From contig NZ_JAANNP010000001.1 in NCBI RefSeq assembly GCF_011250635.1, forward strand, positions 92,748 to 156,747: DNA of 64,000 nt, given 5' to 3'. Below, in pieces: positions 18,864 through 25,574 of this stretch. The number at the start of each line of letters is the position of its first letter. Position 1 is the first letter of the stretch. The position numbers and the translations under genes were made by a program. The notes below the pieces were generated by a model that worked only from the letters and a program-made list of their open reading frames with translations, had not been told where the DNA came from and made no database searches. The DNA is from Motilibacter deserti. Lineage in GTDB: Bacteria; Actinomycetota; Actinomycetes; Motilibacterales; Motilibacteraceae.

Positions 18864-19061
18864 TGGCTCGCGCCCCCTGTGCTGCTCCCTGACCTGCCCG
18901 ACGAGAGTAGGCGAGACCACTGACACGACACGCGGAGCGAGCGTGGCTCTCGTCGTGTCGGGGCCGGGCGGCCGCTTCCTGAGGACGAAGCGACGGGGAA
19001 GGCGGCGGCCAGCTGCCGGACGAGCTGCCAGCCCGGGCGCCGGGCGGCGGGTGGCTCTGCT

Positions 19062-22833: not shown

Positions 22834-24804
22834 TCAGCCACCGCCTTGCACAGGCACGACCGCCTCCGTCCGCACCCCGCTCCCCCGCACTGCATGCTCG
22901 GACGCGAGGCCCGCAGGTTTGGTGCCCGAAGCCTCCGCCCGCTCCGGGGCGGCGAACTGCGTGCGGTAGAGCTCCTCGTAGCGGCCACCGGCGGCGAGCA
23001 GCTCCTCGTGCGTGCCGCGCTCCACCACACGCCCTGCCTCGACGACGAGGATGAGGTCGGCGGCGCGGACGGTCGAGAGCCGGTGCGCGATGACGATCGC
23101 CGTGCGGCCGGCGAGGGCCTCACCCAGCGCCTGCTGCACGGCGGCCTCGGAGGTCGAGTCCAGGTGAGCGGTCGCCTCGTCGAGGATGACCACGCGGGGG
23201 CGGGCGAGCAGGAGCCGGGCGATGGTGAGCCGCTGGCGCTCGCCGCCGGACAAGCGGTAGCCGCGCTCGCCGACGACCGTGTCGAGGCCGTCGGGGAGCG
23301 CTGCGACGAGGTCGGTCAGCCGCGCCCGCCGGAGCACTTCGTCCAGCTCGGCGTCCGTGGCCTCAGGGCGTGCGAGCACGAGGTTGGCCCGGATCGTGTC
23401 GTGGAAGAGGTGGCCGTCCTGGGTGACCATGCCGAGCGCGTCGCGGATCGAGGCGAAGGAGAGGTCGCGCACATCGACGCCGGACAGCCGGACCGCCCCG
23501 GCGTCGACGTCGTAGAGCCGCGGCAGCAGGCTGGCGATGGTGGACTTGCCGGCGCCGGAGGAGCCGACGAGCGCGACCATCTGGCCCGGCTCAGCGCGGA
23601 ACGACACGCCGTGCAGCACCTCCACCCCGCCCCGGGTGTCGAGCTTTGCGACCTCCTCAAGCGAGGCGAGCGAGACCTTGTCCGCCGCCGGGTAGGCGAA
23701 GCGGACGTCCTCGAACTCGACGGACACCGGCCCGTCGGGCACCTGCAGCGGGTCCGGCCGCTCCCGGATGAGCGGCTCGAGGTCGAGGACCTCGAACACC
23801 CGCTCGAAGCTGACCAGCGCGGTCATGACCTCGACCCGCGCGCTCGCCAGCGCGGTCAGCGGGGCGTAGAGCCGGGTGAGCAGCAGGGCGAGCGTGACGA
23901 CCGCGCCCGCGTCGAGGCTGCCGCGCAGGGCGTAGAACCCGCCGAGCCCGTAGACCAGGGCCAGCGCGAGGGCCGAGACGAGGGTCAGCGCGGTGACGAA
24001 GACCGTCTGGACCATGGCGGTGCGCACGCCGATGTCCCGCACCCGGGCGGCCCGGCCCGCGAACTCGGCCGACTCGTGGGCCGGGCGGCCGAAGAGCTTG
24101 ACGAGCGTGGCGCCGGGCGCGGAGAAGCGCTCCGTCATCTGCGTGCCCATGGCAGCGTTGTGGTTCGCCGCCTCCCGCTCGAGCGAGGCCATCCGCGTGC
24201 CCATGCGACGGGCCGGCACGACGAAGACCGGCAGCAGCACCAGCGCGAGGAGCGTGACCTGCCAGGACAGGCTGAGCATGACGGCCAGCGTCAGGACGAG
24301 CGCCACGAGGTTGCCGACGACCCCGGAGAGGGTGTCGCTGAAGGCGCGTTGGGCGCCGATGACGTCGTTGTTGAGCCGGCTGACCAGCGCGCCGGTGCGC
24401 GTCCGGGTGAAGAAGGCGACCGGCATCTGCTGCACGTGGTCGAAGACCGTGCGGCGCAGGTCGAGGATCAGCCCCTCGCCGATGCGGGCGGACAGCCAGC
24501 GGTTGAGCAGGCCGAGCCCTGCCTCCACGATCGCGAGCCCGGCGATGATCAGGGCGAGCGTGACGACCGTCGACGTCTCGTCCCCGTCGACGATGGCGTC
24601 CACCACGCGCCCGGCAAGCACCGGAGTGGCCACCGCGAGCACGGCGAGCACGACGCTGAGCAGCAGGAACTGCACGAGCATCCGCCGGTGGGGGCGCGCG
24701 AACGCCAGGATCCGCCGCAGCGTGGCCCGCGAGAACGGGCGTCGCTCTTCCTCCGCGTTCATCGCGTGGTACATCGACATCCACGCGGTGACTTCCATGT
24801 CCAT
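22834..24804 (-). CDS. ABC exporter (fused permease and ATPase half-transporter)
   Basis: A 656-residue type IV (multidrug/lipid-type) ABC exporter. Six membrane helices occupy about residues 35-335 and include the family stretch MPVAFFTRTRTGALVSRLNNDV. The ATPase has Walker A VGSSGAGKST, Q-loop MVTQDGHLF, signature LSGGERQRL, Walker B RVVILDEAT and the switch His in IAHRLS. A 30-residue insertion (KVSLASLEEVAKLDTRGGVE) splits the start of the ATPase domain. GAGGA lies 8 bases before the ATG at 24804. It is 31 bases downstream of a 62-residue ORF under a SoxR-type promoter. Export of redox-active compounds is therefore an attractive inference, matching SoxR-controlled ABC genes known in Streptomyces. 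Confidence 0.9.
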   Translation of the reverse strand: MDMEVTAWMSMYHAMNAEEERRPFSRATLRRILAFARPHRRMLVQFLLLSVVLAVLAVATPVLAGRVVDAIVDGDETSTVVTLALIIAGLAIVEAGLGLLNRWLSARIGEGLILDLRRTVFDHVQQMPVAFFTRTRTGALVSRLNNDVIGAQRAFSDTLSGVVGNLVALVLTLAVMLSLSWQVTLLALVLLPVFVVPARRMGTRMASLEREAANHNAAMGTQMTERFSAPGATLVKLFGRPAHESAEFAGRAARVRDIGVRTAMVQTVFVTALTLVSALALALVYGLGGFYALRGSLDAGAVVTLALLLTRLYAPLTALASARVEVMTALVSFERVFEVLDLEPLIRERPDPLQVPDGPVSVEFEDVRFAYPAADKVSLASLEEVAKLDTRGGVEVLHGVSFRAEPGQMVALVGSSGAGKSTIASLLPRLYDVDAGAVRLSGVDVRDLSFASIRDALGMVTQDGHLFHDTIRANLVLARPEATDAELDEVLRRARLTDLVAALPDGLDTVVGERGYRLSGGERQRLTIARLLLARPRVVILDEATAHLDSTSEAAVQQALGEALAGRTAIVIAHRLSTVRAADLILVVEAGRVVERGTHEELLAAGGRYEELYRTQFAAPERAEASGTKPAGLASEHAVRGSGVRTEAVVPVQGGG

Positions 24805-24835
24805 CAGGTGCGTCCTCGCTGTCGTCGGACGTTCG

Positions 24836-25024
24836 TCACGCTAGCCCCGGCCACTGACAGCCCGCCATGCGCGCGCTGCCAGAGGTAGACGGCGGAACGG
24901 CCTCGGACTCGTCGCTGCGCACCCCGAACAGCTGGAGCCCCATCAGCCAGGTGGCGCTGCCGGTGACCCATGCGGCCTCCCGCGGCGACCGCTCGGCCTG
25001 GTCGTCCTCTCCTCGTCCACTCAC
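24836..25024 (-). CDS. Uncharacterised 62-residue protein under a SoxR-type promoter
   Basis: I do not recognise this product. From the GTG at 25024 it reads 62 residues: an acidic start (SGRGEDDQAERSPRE), a short hydrophobic stretch (AAWVTGSATWLMGLQLFGV, about residues 17-35) and a Ser/Pro-rich end with one Cys (GCQWPG). TAGCGT ends 8 bases before the GTG, a leaderless layout. It precedes the ABC exporter on the same strand by 31 bases. It may be a real small membrane or accessory protein, or only a translated leader; coding evidence is limited to frame, promoter position and spacing. Confidence 0.5.
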   Translation of the reverse strand: MSGRGEDDQAERSPREAAWVTGSATWLMGLQLFGVRSDESEAVPPSTSGSARMAGCQWPGLA

Positions 25025-25032
25025 GGGTCGCG

Positions 25033-25063
25033 ACGCTAGGACCTCAACTATGGTTGAGGTCAA
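25033..25063 (-). promoter_or_regulatory. SoxR-type promoter: -35 TTGACC, 19-base spacer, -10 TAGCGT
   Basis: On the minus strand TTGACC (25063-25058) and TAGCGT (25038-25033) are separated by exactly 19 bases. Overlong 19-base spacers with the operator inside are the hallmark of MerR/SoxR-activated promoters. The SoxR box fills the spacer. Confidence 0.75.
25041..25060. promoter_or_regulatory. SoxR box
   Basis: ACCTCAACTATGGTTGAGGT: perfect 8-base arms around TATG. The arms CCTCAA and TTGAGG match the known SoxR operator of enterobacteria and actinobacteria. It lies 26 bases before the soxR start and inside the leftward promoter. Confidence 0.85.
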
Positions 25064-25085: not shown

Positions 25086-25574
25086 GTGGCCGAGGACGGA
25101 CGGACGGGCACCCTCGGCATCGGCGACGTGGCCCGCCGCAGCGGCGTCGCGGTGTCCACCCTGCACTTCTACGAGCGCAAGGGCCTGCTCAGCAGCACGC
25201 GCACCGGTGGCAACCAGCGACGCTACGAGCGGGACGTGCTGCGCCGGGTGTCGTTCATCCGGCTCGCACAGAAGGTGGGGATCTCGCTGCAGGAGATCGG
25301 GGAGGCCCTCTCGGCGCTGCCGGAGGGCCGCACGCCCACCGTCGCGGACTGGGCGCGGCTGTCCCGCCAGTGGCACGACGACCTGCAGGAGCGGATCGAC
25401 GGGCTGACCCACCTGCGCGACGACCTGCTCGGGTGCATCGGCTGCGGATGCCTCTCGCTGCGCAGCTGCGCCCTGCTCAACCCGGGCGACGAGCTCGGCC
25501 GGCACGGGCCCGGCGCCCGGCGCTGGGTCGAGGACGAGCCGGGGGCACGCCGGCCGGCCGCGGACGAGCGCTGA
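25086..25574 (+). CDS. soxR: Redox-sensing MerR-family activator SoxR
   Basis: A 162-residue SoxR. The MerR DNA-binding domain starts LGIGDVARRSGVAVSTLHFYERKGLL, followed by the dimerisation helix and the [2Fe-2S] loop CIGCGCLSLRSC (Cys117, 120, 122, 128), all four cluster ligands present. Oxidation of the cluster by redox-active compounds should switch on target promoters. The GTG at 25086 is preceded by GGAGG with 6 bases spacing. An in-frame ATG at 25050 lies within the SoxR box and is rejected. The C-terminal tail after the cluster is longer than in enterobacteria, as usual in actinobacteria. The evident target is the divergent ABC exporter unit. Confidence 0.95.
   Translation: MAEDGRTGTLGIGDVARRSGVAVSTLHFYERKGLLSSTRTGGNQRRYERDVLRRVSFIRLAQKVGISLQEIGEALSALPEGRTPTVADWARLSRQWHDDLQERIDGLTHLRDDLLGCIGCGCLSLRSCALLNPGDELGRHGPGARRWVEDEPGARRPAADER

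Follow-up and report, generated by a model that had tools for sequence, protein, structure and literature searches.

A predicted SoxR promoter and a predicted PafBC-type DNA-damage promoter stand in tandem upstream of an ABC exporter gene in Motilibacter deserti

An ABC exporter gene of Motilibacter deserti is preceded by 2 promoter elements of different kinds, a SoxR/MerR-type promoter (P1) adjoining soxR and, closer to the exporter, a PafBC-type (RecA-NDp) promoter (P2). Judging from the sequence, the 2 promoters probably drive the exporter in tandem, with the 62-codon open reading frame found here being the sequence that lies between them. Two separately studied stress circuits would meet at one exporter, which suggests that pumps of this kind deal with molecules that are at once electron-cycling and DNA-damaging, an idea directly testable on a promoter region of about 260 bp. 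The features are located within the window, that is, the whole stretch of 64,000 nucleotides that was analyzed (contig NZ_JAANNP010000001.1, positions 92,748 to 156,747).

Features of the soxR-exporter region, with positions counted from the first nucleotide of the window
Feature	Position	Strand	Basis
ABC half-exporter (membrane domain and ATPase), EcaA/SCO7008-like	22834..24804	-	PF00664 and PF00005
Shine-Dalgarno-like GAGGA	24813..24817	-	8 nt before the exporter ATG, from sequence
62-codon leaderless GTG frame	24836..25024	-	GTG 8 nt past the P1 -10
P2, RecA-NDp/PafBC-type DNA-damage promoter, TGTCAGTG-N8-TAGCGT	24838..24859	-	motif match and conservation
P1, SoxR/MerR-type promoter	25033..25063	-	TTGACC - 19 bp - TAGCGT, from sequence
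SoxR box, CCTCAACTATGGTTGAGG	25042..25059	.	sole copy in the genome
soxR, redox-sensing MerR-family activator	25086..25574	+	TIGR01950, CX2CXCX5C

The preliminary description of this region had placed a perfect SoxR box between 2 hexamers exactly 19 bases apart, in a promoter pointing away from soxR and toward a small frame followed by an ABC exporter. Both the geometry and the orientation are borne out on the minus strand, where the -35 hexamer TTGACC (25063-25058) and the -10 hexamer TAGCGT (25038-25033) are separated by a 19-nt spacer with the box within it. The 7-bp arms of the box are perfect but its centre is non-palindromic, so the word "perfect" has to be limited to the arms. A pattern search of the genome and the window found CCTCAA-N6-TTGAGG once in the 4.99-Mb genome, at P1, whereas the base composition predicts 0.16 boxes per genome by chance and approximately 4e-7 boxes accompanied by both hexamers. 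The product of soxR scores 219.8 bits against the curated SoxR model TIGR01950 (cut-off 116.9) and retains the [2Fe-2S] cysteine motif CX2CXCX5C (CIGCGCLSLRSC); its orthologue in the sole other species of the genus compared (G001) is 85.6% identical and adjoins the same exporter. We consider the predicted SoxR box and its 19-bp-spacer promoter, located beside a true soxR, to be real. The soxS promoter of Escherichia coli similarly has a SoxR box between hexamers with a 19-bp spacer, but its target is the regulator soxS rather than an exporter; PafBC is not known from E. coli. Almost all genes behind SoxR-box promoters in related genomes (L001-L016 and L041) start 6-8 nt past the -10 hexamer, and leaderless translation hence looks like the rule for actinobacterial SoxR-box promoters.

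The exporter is 93% identical in G001 and 76-85% identical to its best 80 relatives from named actinobacterial genomes. The 31-bp P1 element (≤3 mismatches) was recovered at 75 of the 78 orthologous loci that, among these 80, have sufficient upstream DNA, compared to 0 in shuffled upstream sequences; 5 paralogues of 61-63% identity that belong to the same taxonomic family lack it. The exporter itself is leaderless at 34 of the 75 loci, with the ATG 6-8 nt past the -10 hexamer. Many of the Streptomyces orthologues carry the same SoxR promoter, and the SoxR target SCO7008/ecaA of Streptomyces coelicolor is an ABC transporter gene, with a soxbox conserved across Streptomyces (PMC4146615). Given the promoter conserved at the orthologues and the published SCO7008/ecaA case (PMC4146615), predicted SoxR control of the exporter is well supported and known in kind, in agreement with the earlier remark that SoxR-controlled ABC exporters occur in Streptomyces; this half of the arrangement extends known biology to a new genome. 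The exporter fits SCO7008/EcaA and is its putative orthologue. As in the ecaA system, a SoxR-type box lies in the promoter of an ABC transporter gene; by contrast, soxR here adjoins its sole box, the exporter is not leaderless, starting approximately 228-229 nt past the P1 -10, and a PafBC-type promoter is located between P1 and the exporter.

This second promoter, missed in the preliminary description, occupies the 3' end of the 62-codon frame, with the last T of its -10 hexamer being the first base of the stop codon; a conserved PafBC-type promoter thus makes up the final codons of the frame. Identity between M. deserti and G001 is 82-88% from the P2 block (approximately 24860) to the exporter start, compared to 50-70% in the part of the frame upstream of it. 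The conserved block is of the RecA-NDp type. It matches the PafBC motif published for Mycobacterium tuberculosis, TGTC(A/G)G-N10-TA-N3-T (PMC8151990), and is expected by chance on one strand of 250 bp with a probability of 1.6e-5. The G001 copy is one base off the tighter TGTCRGTG form, and the site is also kept in G004. Genome-wide, there are 18 P2-type sites where 0.63 would be expected, whereas the reversed pattern has 0, and the genes behind them include recA, uvrA, sbcD and a DNA polymerase III alpha gene, as well as a LigD-type gene and one for an exonuclease that is partly UvrC-like. The genome also carries pafA, followed by an FKBP-like frame and 2 WYL-domain genes, which is the order expected for pafBC; the WYL genes are putative pafBC, an assignment based on their domain and location and not on a PafB/PafC model. 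The motif upstream of the exporter is accordingly found in a genome that has pafBC-type genes and in which the same motif is enriched before DNA-repair genes. Single-stranded DNA activates PafBC, which gives the housekeeping polymerase access to the PafBC class of promoters (PMC11804915). The exporter site shares its motif with the PafBC/RecA-NDp regulon, to which the other sites preceding DNA-repair genes point, but differs in that its target is an exporter and that a SoxR promoter accompanies it in tandem; in the reviewed cases of dual control, PafBC is paired with LexA (PMC8223512). A second PafBC-type site in the window, TGTCAGTGGTCTCGCCTACTCT (18904-18925, minus strand), lies 40 nt upstream of a DNA polymerase III alpha gene. 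Elsewhere in the genome, PafBC-type sites precede similar genes at 3 loci (L136, L145 and L150) whose products share the N-terminus MGNS.VDALAALSAA..., possibly a repeated family of the HNH-endonuclease type.

From the promoter elements and how they are conserved, and from the presence of genes for both regulators, we infer the following course of binding, induction and transport. Oxidized SoxR, made from the neighboring gene, would fire P1, whose 19-bp spacer is that of a MerR-type promoter, yielding a transcript that starts at or within 1-2 bases of the GUG of the frame and may well be translated. After DNA damage, the housekeeping RNA polymerase would be enabled by active PafBC to initiate at P2, approximately 195 bp downstream of P1, on a transcript with a leader of approximately 26 nt and a GAGGA Shine-Dalgarno site ahead of the exporter ATG. 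This GAGGA is identical in G001, where it is part of a 21-nt identical block. Redox-active DNA-damaging compounds, such as quinone- or phenazine-like antibiotics, would set off both promoters and would in turn be removed from the cell by the exporter.

The published PafBC motif was detected upstream of 7 of the 86 exporter loci, whereas each shuffle gave 0.025 on average and 145 kb of coding sequence used as control had none. The 7 loci are those of M. deserti, G001 and G004, 2 from Sphaerisporangium and 2 from Rhodococcus; in G004, the SoxR box has been lost while the PafBC-type site has been kept. Most exporter orthologues have P1 only. When 394 genomes were searched with a strict pattern, the P2-exporter arrangement was recovered solely in M. 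deserti and G001, and a tight composite (a SoxR box followed by TGTCRGTG within 4-34 nt) was found in none of the 394. Taken as a prediction from these searches, the SoxR-PafBC pairing is real but sporadic. In 6 Kribbella exporter leaders (L060, L078, L106, L113, L117 and L118), TGTCGGTG occurs a few nt past the P1 -10, with (A/G)ATCAT after it, and may be a PafBC site of a weak or overlapping kind; because the -10 is poor, we do not count these loci as established. No paper combining PafBC and SoxR was found in the literature searched, where RecA-NDp, Streptomyces and ABC transporter are named together only in a general review, and the probable DNA-damage input to the exporter is not described in that literature.

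The 62-codon frame is most likely inter-promoter sequence, perhaps translated, without a sign of protein-level selection, and the comparisons do not support a new small protein. The leaderless frame of the preliminary description does exist, and G001 has an ATG at the same leaderless position, opening a frame of 78 aa. At the local G+C content, however, 62 open codons are expected by chance with P of approximately 0.34, so an open frame with a leaderless start proves little. Codons 1-33 carry 16/12/16 substitutions between the 2 species at codon positions 1/2/3, compared to 40/22/204 in the exporter (chi-square P 2e-7), and positions 1 and 2 of the small frame diverge by 42%, whereas the third positions of the exporter diverge by 32%. 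Purifying selection was not detected over these codons in the 2 species. The codon usage score is near zero for the small frame and approximately 0.4-0.5 per codon for the exporter, which belongs to the training set. The 3' halves of the frame are in different reading frames in the 2 species, and the distance from its end to the exporter ATG is 31 nt in M. deserti and 4 nt in G001. The hydrophobic middle noted previously is present in the 62 residues, but includes Arg and Asp in G001. An AlphaFold model has a mean pLDDT of 61.8 and is too weak for a fold search. The 62 residues matched no protein family and, in 98 genomes, gave only background-level matches except for the same locus in G001; none of the other exporter loci examined has the frame. 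The preliminary description had named loss of conservation of the frame in relatives as evidence against its small protein, and this is largely what is seen, in 2 species. Two other readings of the region were discarded, namely, a 55-aa frame (24971-24804) with a stop codon overlapping the ATG of the exporter, which matched no family and had no equivalent seen in G001, and a vestige of a former gene that diverged from soxR, the small frame having no resemblance by eye to the SoxR-box genes of relatives.

These results bear on 3 alternatives to tandem control of the exporter. A real small protein made together with the exporter, the accessory subunit or redox sensor proposed earlier, would account for the start codon that both species keep at the leaderless position, for a mildly raised third-position G+C content (P of approximately 0.01), for the one helix that the model predicts (residues 14-32, pLDDT approximately 80) and for a REAAWV patch (within 24884-24982, minus strand) that shows solely synonymous changes between the 2 species amid a fast-changing stretch. 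The patch and the G+C content leave room for a residual role of the frame, but with substitutions spread over all codon positions, a charged middle and a different C-terminus in G001, and neither a family nor equivalents at other exporter loci, we regard such a protein as very unlikely. A leaderless-looking small frame can arise as an accident of tandem promoters. It is also quite unlikely that the SoxR promoter acts by itself, the PafBC-type motif being a chance match or inactive, and the 229-nt leader from P1 to the exporter having no function. The orthologues with P1 alone, many of them leaderless, would fit this reading, but the low chance of meeting the P2 motif and the retention of the P2 block both in G001 and in G004, which has no SoxR box, while the surroundings diverge, argue against it.

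Translation of the frame, whatever its sequence, might instead control the exporter, through coupling or through effects on P2. Consistent with this are the conserved leaderless start, the frame of G001 ending almost at the exporter ATG and the overlap between the stop codon and the P2 -10 in M. deserti. In M. deserti, however, the frame stops well short of the exporter ATG, which has a Shine-Dalgarno site of its own, the leader shows no unusual degree of structure (z = 1.27) and matches no RNA family, and many leader-bearing orthologues lack a start codon where a leaderless frame would begin; we consider this form of control unlikely. Within the preferred reading, in which both promoters drive the exporter, there is an improbable elaboration: the SoxR transcript and its leaderless frame run through the PafBC promoter, so that translation or promoter interference would pick the stress that drives the exporter, and the pairing would have arisen or persisted in several lineages (this genus, Sphaerisporangium, Rhodococcus and perhaps Kribbella).
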